DNA of 64,000 bases. Source: Anaerolineae bacterium. Lineage in GTDB: Bacteria > Chloroflexota > Anaerolineae > Aggregatilineales > Phototrophicaceae. This document shows positions 48,152 through 57,522 of this stretch, piece after piece. The notes beneath the pieces are model-generated. The model was not told the origin of the DNA. It ran no database searches and was given only the letters and a program-made list of their open reading frames with translations. Each line of letters begins with the position of its first letter. Positions within the stretch are counted from its first letter, which is position 1. The translations under genes were made by a program, and so were the position numbers. The stretch covers positions 1-64,000 of the forward strand of contig JABWBO010000014.1 in NCBI GenBank assembly GCA_013360465.1. The letters run 5' to 3'.

Positions 48152-49704
48152 ACGTTCTCGCTTTCCAGCACCGCGCCCGCCATCATTGCGCCAATTTGCC
48201 GCACCGTCGCGCCCTCTCGGCTGACCACGCCGATGATGCATCCTTCATACATCACCGCGATGCGGTCAGAAAGGGCCATGATCTCGTCGAGATCCTCGGA
48301 GATCAGCAGGACGGCAGTTCCGCGCGCCCGTTCTTCCAGCAGGCGCAGATGAATATATTCGGTCGCGCGGATGTCCACGCCGCGCGTCGGCTGCGCGGCG
48401 ATCAGCAGTCCCGGCTTGCGAGAAAGCTCCCGCGCCAGGATTAGTTTTTGAATGTTACCGCCAGAAAGATTCTTGAGCGGGGTATCCGGTCCCGGCGTCT
48501 TGATCTCATAACGCTGAATCGCCTCACGACAGGCGCGATCCACCGCGCCATAGTTCATGAGTACGCCGCCGCGCGCGAAGGGGGACGCGGCGTGATCCTG
48601 CAAGATGAAGTTCTCGGCGCAGGTGAATTCCTTGATCGCCCCATCGACCATGCGCTCTTCGGGGATGTAAGCAACACCCAAATTATGGACGAACGTCGCC
48701 GACTTTCCCGTCACATCACGCCCGTTGACCTGGATCGTCCCGCCCTGCGTGGGGCGCAGCCCGGTGATCACCTGTGCCAGTTCGCGCTGACCATTGCCAG
48801 AGACGCCGGCAATGCCGACGATCTCGCCGCCGCAGACGCTCAGCGATACGCCTTTCAAACCCTGCTCACCACGCTCGTTCAGCGCCTTGACATCTTTCAG
48901 CCGCAGGTGTTCCGCGTGCAAATGCGTCTTGTCGCGCTGGTATTCCAGCACCACCGGACGTCCGACCATCATCTCGGCGAGCCGGCCACGGGTGGCGTCA
49001 TGCGTTGGGATGGTATCGACGCGCCTGCCGTCGCGCAGCACCGTCACACGGTCGGTGATCGCCAGCACTTCGTGCAGCTTGTGGGTGATGAAAATCGTCG
49101 CAATACCGTCGGTCTTCATCTGGCGCAGCACCCAGAACAGCTCATCGACCTCGCCCGGCGTCAGGACGGCGGTCGGCTCGTCGAGGATCAACAGGGCAGC
49201 GCCCTTGTAAAGCGCCCGCAGGATCTCCACCCGCTGCTGTTCACCGACGGCAAGCTGCCAGATCGGCACATCGGGATCGACCTTCAGATGATACTGCTCG
49301 GAAAGCTGCCGAAGCCGGCTGGCGACCCCTTTGAGATCAAGCCGCCAGCCGCGTGACGATTTCATGCCAAGCGCGACGTTTTCCGCTACGGTCAGCGACG
49401 GAACGAGCATGAAATGCTGATGGACCATGCCAATGCCGCTCTGAATGGCATCGTGAGGAGAACGCACCCGCGCCGGCGTCCCATCGAGCATCACCGTGCC
49501 CTCGTCTGGCTGGTACAGCCCGTAGAGCATCTTCATCAGCGTACTCTTGCCCGCGCCGTTCTCGCCCAGCAGGGCGTGGATCTCGCCGGAACGCACATCG
49601 AAATCGACATGATCCACCGCCAGCACTCCGGGAAAGCGCTTCACAATGCCAATCATGCGCATCTCGTTGATACGTTTCAGTGTAATTGCCGCTTGCGTAG
49701 TCAT
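48148..49704 (-). CDS. Nucleoside/sugar ABC importer ATP-binding protein (two ATPase domains)
   Basis: A 518-residue double ATPase of the RbsA/YufO type. Domain 1 has Walker A GENGAGKSTLMKML (about residue 50), a signature in LAVGEQQRVEILRAL and Walker B LLILDEPTAVLTP. Domain 2 has GVSGNGQRELAQVITGL in place of Walker A, signature LSGGNIQKLILARELSRKPG, and Walker B LLIAAQPTRGVDI, the degenerate pattern typical of such proteins. It powers the two permeases encoded upstream in the same operon. The family exports energy to nucleoside or purine uptake in Firmicutes. It ends overlapping the FAD subunit gene. Confidence 0.95.
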   Translation of the reverse strand: MTTQAAITLKRINEMRMIGIVKRFPGVLAVDHVDFDVRSGEIHALLGENGAGKSTLMKMLYGLYQPDEGTVMLDGTPARVRSPHDAIQSGIGMVHQHFMLVPSLTVAENVALGMKSSRGWRLDLKGVASRLRQLSEQYHLKVDPDVPIWQLAVGEQQRVEILRALYKGAALLILDEPTAVLTPGEVDELFWVLRQMKTDGIATIFITHKLHEVLAITDRVTVLRDGRRVDTIPTHDATRGRLAEMMVGRPVVLEYQRDKTHLHAEHLRLKDVKALNERGEQGLKGVSLSVCGGEIVGIAGVSGNGQRELAQVITGLRPTQGGTIQVNGRDVTGKSATFVHNLGVAYIPEERMVDGAIKEFTCAENFILQDHAASPFARGGVLMNYGAVDRACREAIQRYEIKTPGPDTPLKNLSGGNIQKLILARELSRKPGLLIAAQPTRGVDIRATEYIHLRLLEERARGTAVLLISEDLDEIMALSDRIAVMYEGCIIGVVSREGATVRQIGAMMAGAVLESENV

Positions 49705-49801
49705 TGAGGTTCAGTCAGTTCTCGTCTGAGAATAATTATAACGACTGGCAACAAAATCGACATTCTAGGGTATGTCTGTAGACTCACTTTCTGTTGTCCC
49801 C

Positions 49802-53046: not shown

Positions 53047-53237
53047 CGTCCAGAGCAAACCCGAAAAGTATATCTGTTGGCTATTAGAACCGAATTCAGC
53101 ATTTCCGACAACATCCTCGGCGAGCCTTTAGAAAAACGTAGCAAATATCACCGCATATCGCGTTTGGGGTGGTTTCTCGTACAATAGGGAGCAGTGGCTC
53201 ATTCATTGTTAGATTAGTCGGACTCCAGGGTACACAG

Positions 53238-55031
53238 ATGGATATCTATCAACCTGACAGACGACGCAAAGGGCGCGCCCGCGAACGCAGCGCCGCCCGC
53301 CAGCGCAAGCAGATGGTCGTGCGCCAGACCACCAAACCGCAGGATGCCGATACAGTGCCGATTGAGCGCCCGGTCATGAGCCGCGCCCCCTATGAACCCG
53401 GCACGTTCGATACAGAAGTGTTCAAGGGGCGCGCCGTGGTGATGCTGCGCGATGGCTGGTGGTACGTAAGCCAAAACCGCCTGATCATGGTGGGGATCGC
53501 GCTGCTGCCGGTGCTGCTGGTCGCGTTGTATCTCGGCTCTTTCATCCTGGGCAACCGCGTCTTCCCCAATGTCTGGGTCCTCGGTCGCGACATCGGCGGA
53601 ATGAACGCCGACGAAGCATCGTCCATGCTTCAGACTCTCTGGACTCAGGAGACGCGCATCACGCTTGCTGATGGCAGCCGCATCTGGAACGTGACCCCCG
53701 CGCAGATCGGTGTTGTGCTGGACGCTGCCGCAACCGTAGAAGCCGCCAGGGCGATTGGGCTGTCCGGCGTACCGTTCGGCTATGGCATCACGCCGGTGGT
53801 CAGCCTGGACTTCCTGGCAGCACAAAACACGCTGCTCGATCTGACAGAGCAGACCAAAATCCTGCCCTATAATGCCGCATTCCAGTGGAACGGCTCGCAG
53901 GTTCTCGGCGTCGAGGGGAGCGATGGGCGATTTCTGGACATCGCCGCGACGATGGCGGCGCTGGAAGCCAACCTGGCGCTGACTGCCGAGTCCCGGCGAT
54001 TTGATCTGATCATGACCATCGTCCCGCCCGATGTCCGCGATCCCTCGCCCTATCTGGCTCAGGCGCAGGCGTTCGTCAGCCATCCTTTCACGATCAAGGG
54101 GTTTGATCCCTTCACCAACGAGAGTTTTGCCTGGTCCACCGATCGGGCGACGCTCACTTCCTGGCTGGAAGTCGATACCGACGGGCTGACCGTGCGCGAA
54201 GCCGTCTACGCCAATTTCGTCGATGCCCAGACTCAGTCGCTGCAAAGCACCAGCGCACTGCGTTACATCGAGACCAATGACTCTATCGCCAAGATGCGTG
54301 AAGCCATCGCCGAAAATGCGGAAGAGTTCACCGTGCGCGTCCGCTATCGTTCCTATCAGCACGAGGTTGAACCGGGCGATACAGGTTACCGCATTGCTCG
54401 GCGCAACGGCGTGCCGTTCTACCAGCTCGAACTGGCTAACCCCAATCGCGATTGGGAGGTGCCGCTAGTCGTGGGCGAACTGGTCAACATCCCTTCGCCG
54501 GACATCATGCTGCCCATCGACCCGGTCCCCAGTAAGCGCATCGTGGTCAATCTGCGCACGCAGTCCCTTGCCGTCTTCGAAAACGGCGAGATGATCCGCA
54601 CCTGGGTGATCGCTTCCGGTATGGATCGCGCGCCGACTTCGCCGGGTATCTTCCAAATCCTGAACCATGACGAAAAGGCATCAGGCGGCAGCTACGAGTT
54701 GTGCAGCGATATGGGCTGCGCACAGTGGGAGATGGACTGGTTCATGGGCATCTACGAGGTCGTGCCGGGGCTGGTCAACGGCTTCCATGGCAACGTGCTG
54801 CTGCCCAACGGGCGGCTCCTGGGCGACGGCAACGTCGGGAGTCCGGCGACCTTCGGCTGTGTCATGTCGGAAAACGAGCCGGCACAGTGGCTTTTCGACT
54901 GGGCAGACGAGGGGACGGTCGTCGAGATCATCGCGGGCGATTTCCTGCCGCGCAGCGCCCAGGCGGAAGCTTTCTGGAATGACGGCGCCAGGACGCAGGC
55001 GACGCCAATGGTCAGCCCTGATCGGATCTAG
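53238..55031 (+). CDS. L,D-transpeptidase (YkuD) with membrane anchor, PG-binding and LysM-like domains
   Basis: A 597-residue cell-wall enzyme starting at ATG 53238 with AGGG upstream. After a basic ~75-residue cytoplasmic tail comes a membrane helix (LIMVGIALLPVLLVALYLGS), then VanW-type peptidoglycan-binding domain (about 105-340), a LysM-like module (EVEPGDTGYRIARRNGVPFY) and a YkuD domain (about 425-575) that cross-links or modifies peptidoglycan. The catalytic region has NGFHGNVLL and, later, PATFGCVMSENEP with the nucleophile Cys; the His that normally precedes the Gly-Cys is replaced by Phe. A terminator follows the stop. Confidence 0.85.
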   Translation: MDIYQPDRRRKGRARERSAARQRKQMVVRQTTKPQDADTVPIERPVMSRAPYEPGTFDTEVFKGRAVVMLRDGWWYVSQNRLIMVGIALLPVLLVALYLGSFILGNRVFPNVWVLGRDIGGMNADEASSMLQTLWTQETRITLADGSRIWNVTPAQIGVVLDAAATVEAARAIGLSGVPFGYGITPVVSLDFLAAQNTLLDLTEQTKILPYNAAFQWNGSQVLGVEGSDGRFLDIAATMAALEANLALTAESRRFDLIMTIVPPDVRDPSPYLAQAQAFVSHPFTIKGFDPFTNESFAWSTDRATLTSWLEVDTDGLTVREAVYANFVDAQTQSLQSTSALRYIETNDSIAKMREAIAENAEEFTVRVRYRSYQHEVEPGDTGYRIARRNGVPFYQLELANPNRDWEVPLVVGELVNIPSPDIMLPIDPVPSKRIVVNLRTQSLAVFENGEMIRTWVIASGMDRAPTSPGIFQILNHDEKASGGSYELCSDMGCAQWEMDWFMGIYEVVPGLVNGFHGNVLLPNGRLLGDGNVGSPATFGCVMSENEPAQWLFDWADEGTVVEIIAGDFLPRSAQAEAFWNDGARTQATPMVSPDRI

Positions 55032-55070
55032 ACGCCGCCCCCGCCGAAGCAAGGTACTCCTGTCCAGTTA

Positions 55071-55104
55071 CCCCCGAAGCGCCTCGTCGCTTCGGGGGTT
55101 TTTG
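55071..55104 (+). terminator. Intrinsic terminator of the L,D-transpeptidase gene
   Basis: CCCCCGAAGCG (55071-55081) pairs perfectly with CGCTTCGGGGG (55088-55098) around a 6-base loop and is followed by TTTTTG. Confidence 0.9.
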
Positions 55105-55333
55105 TTGTGCAGGATGTATGAATATCTCTCGCACGCCGAGTCAACTCATGTCCCATTCATAATAATACACCTCCGCATTTTTGTTCTATTCTCAACTTTT
55201 CATTGAGCATGAAAACGTTTCGAGTCATTCTGGGAGCGCTACCTGTGAGCGGCAGCAAATTTGTTAATTATTTCACGAGCGATAATGAATTCCTGAACGA
55301 TCTATTTTTGCGGATTCCCCCCTACGATCCGGT
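55105..55333. other. AT-rich intergenic stretch, no gene seen
   Basis: About 230 bp between the L,D-transpeptidase terminator and the candidate small-RNA promoter. It is clearly richer in A+T than the rest of the window (for example ATTCATAATAATACACCTCC, then TTTGTTCTATTCTC). No open frame with a ribosome site, no repeat and no tRNA or riboswitch pattern was found. It may hold upstream control sites for the unit that follows. Confidence 0.5.
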
Positions 55334-55362
55334 TTGACTTTCCCCTGAGCGCCCCATATACT
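55334..55362 (+). promoter_or_regulatory. Near-consensus sigma-70-type promoter
   Basis: TTGACT (55334-55339) and TATACT (55357-55362) are separated by exactly 17 bp, each one base from consensus. Transcription would start near 55369 and run into a 10-bp stem and an intrinsic terminator. Confidence 0.75.
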
Positions 55363-55368
55363 TCAGAC

Positions 55369-55470
55369 ATAAATAAAATAAACGAAGTGCGGGATGGAAG
55401 ACATTTCTTTTAAAAGACTTAATCCTCATCCCGCACACAAAATAGGCGCCTCTCACGAGGCGCTTTTTAT
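55369..55470 (+). ncRNA. Candidate small RNA or attenuated leader (about 100 nt)
   Basis: The predicted transcript runs from a near-consensus promoter to a terminator. It contains GTGCGGGATG (55387-55396) and its exact complement CATCCCGCAC (55427-55436), giving a 10-bp stem with a 30-base A/T-rich loop. The terminator GCGCCTC/GAGGCGC (55446-55463) is followed by TTTTTAT. A short in-frame ATG at 55394 lies in the stem but has no separate ribosome site. Alternatives: a leader with attenuation control of the S9 peptidase gene that begins 60 bp further on, or a leader peptide. No known RNA family was recognised. Confidence 0.55.
55446..55469 (+). terminator. Intrinsic terminator closing the candidate small RNA
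   Basis: GCGCCTC (55446-55452) and GAGGCGC (55457-55463) form a 7-bp stem with a 4-base loop, followed by TTTTTAT. It ends about 60 bp before the S9 peptidase start. Confidence 0.85.
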
Positions 55471-55530
55471 TTGCGTTACAATAGTCTGCGCAATCCAACA
55501 TCCAACCTGATCCTCACCCTACTGGACGGC

Positions 55531-57522
55531 ATCATGACTTCTGCTTCCAATAAACCCATGCACAATATACAAATGCGCATGTTTGGCACCTGGGACAGCG
55601 TCATCACAGCGGAGTCTGTGGCGCTGAATGCGCGCATCGGCGATGCTGCCTGGGACAGCGACGGCAAGACCCTGGTCTGGACGGAATCGAGGCAGGGCGC
55701 TACCTGGCTCATGGCGAAGACGGGTCAGGATTCGCCACGTTTCCTGACCGATGGCAACATCCCGGTGCGTGGACGCATCGGTTACGGCGGCGGCGACTTC
55801 ACCGTCGCGGGTGGAGTCGTCTATTTCGTCGGTCACGACAGGCGGGTCTTCAGCCTGCCCCTTGCAGGCGGCGTTCCTCATCCGATCACACCGCCCTTTG
55901 GCGCAGCCGCCGCACCAACCATCTCCCCCGACGGACGCTTCCTGATCTTTGCCCACCATCACGAGGGCGTCGACGGTCTGGCGGTGGTCGATGTTGATGG
56001 CAGGCAGTTCCCGCGCAAGCTCGCCTACGACGCCGATTTCGTCATGCAGCCCGCCTGGCATCCTTCCGGCAGCCTGCTCGCCTACGTGATCTGGAATCAT
56101 CCGCAGATGCCCTTCGACGGGACGCAGCTGATCGTCGCACAGCTCCAGGAAACTGCCGGGCTGCCGGCGGTCGTCAGCACCTCGATCCTCGCCGGCGGAC
56201 CCGATACCGCTATCTTCCAGCCCGCATTCTCGCCAGATGGACGCAAACTGGCATACGTCAGCGATGAGACGGGCTGGTGGCAGATCTATATCTATGACCT
56301 GGAGACAAAGCAGACTCGCCAGATCACCGACGTACCGGCAGAACATGCCGCGCCGGCGTGGGCACAGGGGATGCGCACCATCGGCTGGTCGCCGAGCGGT
56401 GACGCCCTTTACTTCCTGCGCAGCGCACTCGGCAAGTCGCGCCTGGGCATGGTCGAGCTGACGAACGGCACGACGCGCGAAGTCCGGGCGCTGGAACACT
56501 ACGACTCGATGCGTCAGATCGCCGTCTCGCCCACTTATGATGAAGTCGCCCTGATCGCCGCATCCACCACCACCCCCGATCGACTGGTCAGCATCGAAAT
56601 CGACCGCCTGCACATCCCGCCCGCGCTGTCGCTGGGCAGCGACGACTCTGGCGTGGGGAGGATAGCGGTCATCATCGCCGAGCAGGAAGTGATCCACGCG
56701 CGTTCGCGGTCGGAGATGCTGCGCGACCAGATCGCGCCCGGTCAGCCGGTGGAATGGACGGGGCACGACGGCGAGACGGTCTACGGATGGTACTACCCGC
56801 CGTTCAATGCGCGCTGCCGCAGCAGCGGCGCGCCTCCGCTGATCGTGCGCGTTCACGGCGGACCAACCGGACAGTCGCGGCAGAACTACGCGCCGGAAAC
56901 GCACTTCTTCACGACGCGCGGTTATGCGCTGCTGGATGTCAATCATCGCGGCAGCACCGGCTATGGCAAAGCCTACAAGGACAAGCTGCGCGGCATGTGG
57001 GGCGTCTATGATGTTGAAGACAGCGCCAGCGGCGCACTGGCGCTCGTCGAACGCGGTCTTGCCGACCGAAGCAAGCTGATCATCCTGGGCGGCAGTGCCG
57101 GCGGCTACACGGTGCTGCAATCGCTGGCGACCAAACCGGGACTGTATGCCGCCGGCGTCTGCCTGTACGGCATCTCCAATCAATTCCTGCTTTCCTTCAA
57201 CGACGCCTGGAAATTCGAAGCGCGCTACAATGATACGCTCCTCGGCACGCTGCCGGAATCGACCGCGCTCTTTCGCGAGCGTTCGCCGCTCTTCCACGCC
57301 GACAAGATCAGCGATCCGCTGATCATCTTTCACGGCGAGGACGACGAGGCGGTTCCAATCAGCCAGGCAGAAGTGATCGTCAAGGCGCTGCGGCGGCGCG
57401 GCGTGCCCCACGAGTACCACGTCTACAAGGGCGAAGGGCACGGTTGGCACAAATCAGAGACGATCATCCACTACCTGAAAGCGACGATCGATTTCTTGCA
57501 GCAGATCGTGATCTTCAAGTAG
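55531..57522 (+). CDS. S9 family peptidase (acylaminoacyl/dipeptidyl-peptidase type)
   Basis: A 663-residue serine peptidase starting at ATG 55531. Residues ~20-390 form a beta-propeller with TolB-like blades (GDAAWDSDGKTLVWTES, SPDGRFLIFAHHHEG, FSPDGRKLAYVSDETG) that gates access. Residues ~400-663 are the alpha/beta-hydrolase domain: IVRVHGGPTGQSRQNY (oxyanion region), the nucleophile Ser in ILGGSAGGYTVLQSL, Asp in FHGEDDEAVP and His in GEGHGWHKSE. It cuts short peptides, probably in the cytoplasm because no signal peptide is seen. It follows a terminator-like hairpin and is linked to the UbiA-family gene 26 bp downstream. Confidence 0.95.
   Translation: MMTSASNKPMHNIQMRMFGTWDSVITAESVALNARIGDAAWDSDGKTLVWTESRQGATWLMAKTGQDSPRFLTDGNIPVRGRIGYGGGDFTVAGGVVYFVGHDRRVFSLPLAGGVPHPITPPFGAAAAPTISPDGRFLIFAHHHEGVDGLAVVDVDGRQFPRKLAYDADFVMQPAWHPSGSLLAYVIWNHPQMPFDGTQLIVAQLQETAGLPAVVSTSILAGGPDTAIFQPAFSPDGRKLAYVSDETGWWQIYIYDLETKQTRQITDVPAEHAAPAWAQGMRTIGWSPSGDALYFLRSALGKSRLGMVELTNGTTREVRALEHYDSMRQIAVSPTYDEVALIAASTTTPDRLVSIEIDRLHIPPALSLGSDDSGVGRIAVIIAEQEVIHARSRSEMLRDQIAPGQPVEWTGHDGETVYGWYYPPFNARCRSSGAPPLIVRVHGGPTGQSRQNYAPETHFFTTRGYALLDVNHRGSTGYGKAYKDKLRGMWGVYDVEDSASGALALVERGLADRSKLIILGGSAGGYTVLQSLATKPGLYAAGVCLYGISNQFLLSFNDAWKFEARYNDTLLGTLPESTALFRERSPLFHADKISDPLIIFHGEDDEAVPISQAEVIVKALRRRGVPHEYHVYKGEGHGWHKSETIIHYLKATIDFLQQIVIFK

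Follow-up and report, generated by a model that had tools for sequence, protein, structure and literature searches.

A probable small RNA gene with a covarying long-loop stem and its own promoter and terminator in one family of Chloroflexota

Does the intergenic stretch that separates an L,D-transpeptidase gene from an S9 peptidase gene in an Anaerolineae bacterium hold a small RNA gene of its own, or is it the leader of the peptidase gene? The stretch lies in a window (the whole stretch of DNA analysed) of 64,000 nucleotides from contig JABWBO010000014.1 of a 5.93-Mb draft genome. The original prediction, made from the sequence alone, placed TTGACT-17-TATACT, a 10-bp stem and an intrinsic terminator one after the other at 55334–55470. 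All three were confirmed there and in that order (Table 1), and the patch is indeed richer in AT than its surroundings (41–47% G+C versus 59–68% in windows within the flanking genes). The ATG of S9 at 55534 lies 64 bp beyond 55470. Between the terminator and this start codon a TACAAT at 55478–55483 is perhaps the -10 box of S9 itself.

Table 1. Features of the locus, in coordinates of the window
Feature	Position	Strand	Remarks
Upstream neighbour, YkuD L,D-transpeptidase with PG_binding_4	53169–55031	+	
Terminator-like hairpin after the L,D-transpeptidase ORF	55070–55099		
Candidate operator TTCACGAGCGATAATGAA	55272–55289	.	ATTAnCGnTAAT palindrome in a weak form; located by visual comparison with L104 and L107
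-35 box TTGACT	55334–55339	+	From promoter scan; no change in sister genome G006
-10 box TATACT	55357–55362	+	17-nt spacer after -35; unchanged in sister genome
Predicted small RNA, ~100 nt	55369–55470	+	Start inferred from -10 box, end from T run
Long-loop stem, 5' arm GTGCGGGATG	55387–55396	+	
Single-stranded A/U-rich loop, 30 nt	55397–55426	+	Identical in sister genome
Long-loop stem, 3' arm CATCCCGCAC	55427–55436	+	Stem of 10 bp
Intrinsic terminator: hairpin of 9 bp closed by a tetraloop, plus T run	55444–55468 (hairpin 55444–55465)	+	
Downstream neighbour, S9 prolyl oligopeptidase with PD40 repeats	55534–57522	+	

The promoter is near-consensus as claimed, with 10 of 12 positions matching, yet by itself it is not significant, since a scan finds 2 promoter-like sites in 10 kb as against 2.2 in shuffles. 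The predicted RNA folds at -36.4 kcal/mol (z -7.08), an energy as low as which was seen in none of 200 shuffles, and its long-loop and terminator hairpins coexist in both the minimum and the centroid predicted structures. The element might instead overlap a short protein-coding gene: a 44-aa mechanical ORF at 55203–55337 reaches into the -35 box, and its frame, read by eye, seems to continue in the sister genome, where a C run shorter by 1 nt shifts it. Against this, differences fall 9, 8 and 3 times at codon positions 1, 2 and 3, so that third positions are not favoured, and the loop varies from 29 to 47 nt across homologues in steps that are not multiples of three. We give the coding reading very little credence.

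A DNA search of 61 relatives gave, among the matches listed, one real match besides the window, namely the locus in the close genome G006 (the sister, 91% identity). The next-best of the matches listed, L003 (E 0.0104, 46 nt), looks by eye like coding sequence. The element differs from the sister at 6 of 137 positions, whereas the intergenic sequence immediately before it shows 35 differences in 223 (Fisher p 0.001) and the fourfold sites of S9 show 62 in 361 (p 0.0001); promoter boxes, loop and terminator carry no change. Two observations count against an RNA gene. The sister's single stem change, G55396C, breaks the innermost pair with no compensation, and the stretch from the terminator to the S9 start (55471–55533) has only 1 difference in 63 positions, so that constraint is not limited to the RNA. 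Elsewhere, alignment with the sister opens 132 extra nt in the sister at window positions 53201–53300, close to where the L,D-transpeptidase gene begins, and 146 extra nt at 49701–49800.

Homologues of the element were sought upstream of S9 orthologues, whose proteins are about half identical (96% in the sister) and whose named host genomes are labelled mostly Chloroflexi or Anaerolineae, with one Aggregatilineales. Read directly, these upstream regions have the same order of parts with differing stem sequences. A promoter together with an 8-bp long-loop stem occurs in 15 of 26 regions, against 0.05 expected from dinucleotide shuffles, in a scan that is independent of any RNA model and whose form was set after those regions had been read; the arrangement as a whole thus exceeds chance. 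When no promoter is required the stem is found in 17 of 26 regions, versus 5.4 in shuffles. The strict scan leaves 11 of the 26 without the element, which counts against an RNA gene; the covariance model later recovered it in two of those 11, L035 (as L122) and L039 (as L108).

That model, built with the window itself among its sequences, matches the window at 55385–55467 with 69.8 bits (E 3e-13 across the loci retrieved). It gave 95 matches, 38 of which were dropped for repeating a locus that was already in the count, on the opposite strand or as a second match. Setting aside L138, L139, L140 and L143 on reading reduced the remaining 57 to 53 loci, with L141 and L142 retained despite an absent stem. 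Of the hits in the 62 matching genomes of the order (below), the set leaves out the weak ones in G122, G134, G135, G136, G139 and G151, together with one contig of G145 and one of the two of G086. Strong copies number 44, in 44 genomes of the window's family, and covariation was counted on these 44 best matches alone, the cut being placed directly above the first match to the opposite strand. In 16 initial sequences, picked by a scan that itself requires complementary arms, 6 of the 9 stem pairs had changed on either side; in the 44, all nine have. The compensatory stem changes across Chloroflexota that the original prediction proposed as its check are therefore found. Stem cells are paired in 96.1% of cases, compared with 83.1% when shuffled and 38–66% when slid, and double-change cells number 115 against 28.3 in shuffles. 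The terminator helix behaves similarly (6 of 8 pairs changed on both sides, 96.3% of cells paired). L114 and L121 offer an example: they differ at 3 of 87 positions, two of which are the two sides of one pair, changed from G-C to A-U. RNAalifold, given no structure, returned the same two helices and an unpaired loop from the 44-sequence alignment, which had been fitted to the model. Since a model that takes pairing into account was used both to collect and to align the 44 homologues, the alignment leans towards pairing, and this has to be counted against the RNA gene. One could still see in the locus a chance arrangement without function, the promoter match alone being no commoner than in shuffles; with the covariation of every stem pair and the recurrence upstream of S9 orthologues, such a coincidence is scarcely credible.

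The original prediction had also offered an alternative, an attenuated leader of the S9 gene, that is, a cis-acting or riboswitch-like element whose terminator is bypassed under some signal. S9 lies downstream, on the same strand and within 140 bp, at 38 of the 53 loci, and the conservation between terminator and S9 fits a leader too. The linkage looks like shared synteny, since an L,D-transpeptidase gene is found upstream almost as often (32 of 53): both neighbours are present at 27 loci, S9 only at 11, the transpeptidase only at 5 and neither at 10. A leader of this kind would always stand directly upstream of the gene it regulates, but 15 of the 53 loci have no S9 downstream (at L104 and L132, whose contigs end 773 and 8 nt downstream, there is too little sequence to judge). 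S9 follows 36 of the 44 strong copies and is missing for certain from 7 of the 43 with enough downstream sequence (L095, L112, L120, L124, L125, L126 and L127); at L120 and L125 the next frame in the mechanical ORF listing lies on the opposite strand. These copies argue for a free-standing gene rather than simply an S9 leader, and the RNA persists at loci without the L,D-transpeptidase as well. Furthermore, the predicted fold contains no competing antiterminator, and pairing of the loop with the 150 nt that follow the RNA and contain the S9 start is not above that of shuffles (mean z +0.16 over 36 loci, with one below -2). The S9 leader is therefore not supported, and we consider it improbable. 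The small-RNA interpretation of 55334–55470, by contrast, is strongly supported by sequence comparison, through the 44 strong copies, the covariation of all nine pairs and the copies without S9.

How widely does this RNA occur? Within the order, 62 of 154 genomes match at E 0.01, second matches in a genome being for the most part the same place read on the other strand. The window's family accounts for 59 of the 62, and the three matches outside it are weak (E 0.0018–0.0076). The 92 genomes of the order without a match at this threshold weigh against a small RNA gene. An even draw of the class yielded 12 matches in 396 genomes at 0.001, 11 of them in the family and the other in G441, and a draw of the phylum yielded 4 in 400, two in the family and two weak and unconfirmed (G518 and G812, with no clear promoter by eye). 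The RNA therefore appears restricted to one family, within reach of these models. The G441 match adjoins an apparent tRNA gene. In genus g17, weak matches at L141:4975-5046 and L142:5052-5123 come with TTGACA and a terminator, have no long stem, and carry a GATTTATTGAAA-like unit twice, nearly identical each time; they are perhaps a stemless relative of the RNA. Five further g17 genomes have weak matches (G122, G134, G135, G136 and G139). A link with phototrophy was considered and rejected: of the 154 genomes in the order, 5 have a PF00124 reaction-centre match, and among these an RNA hit is present in G014 and G002 only (weak in G002). The PF00124 match is absent both from the window's genome and from G108, whose copy of the RNA gene lies at G108:C1:2541016-2541103 on the minus strand.

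The homologues also share sequence upstream of the stem. At 48 of the 53 loci there is a promoter that fits the consensus in 9 or more of its 12 positions, compared with 83 of 1060 background segments. Farther upstream, 33 of 53 regions contain ATTATCG, where 2.0 would be expected, and 36 of 53 loci the palindrome core TAnCGnTA, with GAATTATCGATAATTC as its best form. Matches to at least 11 of the 16 palindrome positions sit either 40–43 bp (18 loci) or 51–55 bp (13 loci) before the -35 box, making 31 of 53, and none of the 53 loci has such a match at 44–50 bp; of the remainder, 19 have lower scores and 3 match best at a greater distance. The two spacings are about one helical turn apart, which would leave a bound protein facing RNA polymerase, as expected for an activator. 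The palindrome thus suggests that a DNA-binding regulator, an activator, acts upstream of the RNA. In the window the right half of the candidate operator starts 53 bp before -35, and L104 and L107 carry TTCACTAxCGATAATGAA about as far upstream. The window's palindrome is a weak form, missed by the core pattern as well as by the 16-mer scoring, and this counts against our reading of the locus. In G084 the palindrome lies within a 40-bp dyad, TTGTGC-N6-GAATTATCGnTAATTC-N6-GCACAA, exact on both sides; one side of these TTGTGC/GCACAA flanks is exact in G091, and they are found in none of the other 6 genomes searched. At no more than 2 mismatches the palindrome occurs at 11 places in 8 genomes and a reversed control pattern at 1. 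Two of the 11 are the RNA gene itself (G084 and G091), while of the other nine, seven overlap a frame of at least 120 aa and two (G085 L157 and G012 L161) lie just before one. A wide regulon was rejected, as G084 and G091 hold no other site with up to 2 mismatches outside a reading frame; uniqueness was judged in these two genomes only, because in the other six the palindrome at the RNA gene itself is too weak to pass. Recurring TTTAAC and TTTTCAYAA words were also seen by eye some 40–60 bp before the palindrome (e.g. L119, L113, L115 and L128), and we take them to resemble Pho-box half sites.

What the RNA does may be sought in its loop. This is A/U-rich and poor in G (91 of 1516 letters across homologues), and at offsets of 10–17 nt it is more similar to itself than shuffles are (8.2 of 11 versus 6.7, sd 0.15, highest of 200 being 7.2), although A/U sequence of low complexity inflates such values and the shuffling preserved dinucleotides only approximately. 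Two tandem A/U-rich units could bind a single-strand RNA-binding protein, so that the RNA would titrate it. The paucity of G and the self-similarity speak for this sub-case of a small RNA, the low complexity of the loop weakens it, and we hold it as a tentative possibility. More doubtful is a fuller version, with a family-wide RNA independent of Hfq, in which the stem serves only to present the tandem loop to such a protein, within a nearly private circuit of one regulator and one RNA; the near-privacy is suggested by G084 and G091, with their lack of other palindromes outside reading frames. CsrB/RsmY-like protein sponges carry repeated GGA in their loops. Such a sponge was rejected on the low G content (G was counted, not GGA). 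Finally, Hfq was found in none of 61 genomes (the control was positive in 5 of 14), and an Hfq-dependent base-pairing RNA, for which Hfq has to be encoded in the genome, is thus at odds with these relatives.

Altogether, we think it probable that the locus is a usually single-copy gene for a small RNA of ~100 nt with its own sigma-70-type promoter and its own terminator, acting independently of Hfq. Comparison among homologues shows the putative promoter, the covarying stem, the make-up of the loop and the terminator. Transcription would begin at the sigma-70-type promoter, under the control of an activator-type regulator bound at the upstream palindrome, and end at the terminator. The predicted 9–10 bp stem would hold open the G-poor, A/U-rich loop of some 30–40 nt, with the terminator hairpin next to it. 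Once exposed, the loop may act in trans without Hfq, either by pairing with mRNA or by binding a single-strand RNA-binding protein; we slightly favour pairing because it is the commoner way. The locus thereby adds to the Chloroflexota a strongly covarying small RNA family, together with a candidate site for its regulator, in relatives in whose genomes Hfq was not found.

The RNA matches no described family at Rfam 15 cut-offs. At gathering score the whole window gives only a tRNA, and in a permissive scan of the locus and six homologous loci the best match over the RNA is istR, with 25.7 bits against a gathering score of 45. Open-access text searches returned nothing on this RNA and no small-RNA study for Chloroflexota. 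The genome of Phototrophicus methaneseepsis ZRK33, a cultured and reportedly phototrophic bacterium, is given as 5,631,885 bp, with RNA-seq reads deposited under PRJNA685946 and PRJNA758590 (PMC8941918). Chloroflexi-1 RNA (RF01698), listed for Chloroflexus aggregans (PMC2864571), is likewise a candidate structured RNA from this phylum, but it differs in that our locus gives no Rfam match at cut-off. Like 6S RNA (RF00013), the predicted RNA is small and has a stem enclosing an open single-stranded region, whereas it has about half the length of the 6S gene. Identity with 6S was rejected: no RF00013 match is listed for the locus, and a separate 6S gene above the RF00013 cut-off lies elsewhere in the same genome (G000:C193:14403-14579). 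Trans-encoded bacterial small RNAs differ from it in that here no Hfq is found in 61 relatives and the loop is A/U-rich and G-poor, but the likeness to them is extensive: a free-standing gene, a similar size, an own promoter that here looks regulated, an intrinsic terminator and an exposed single-stranded region.
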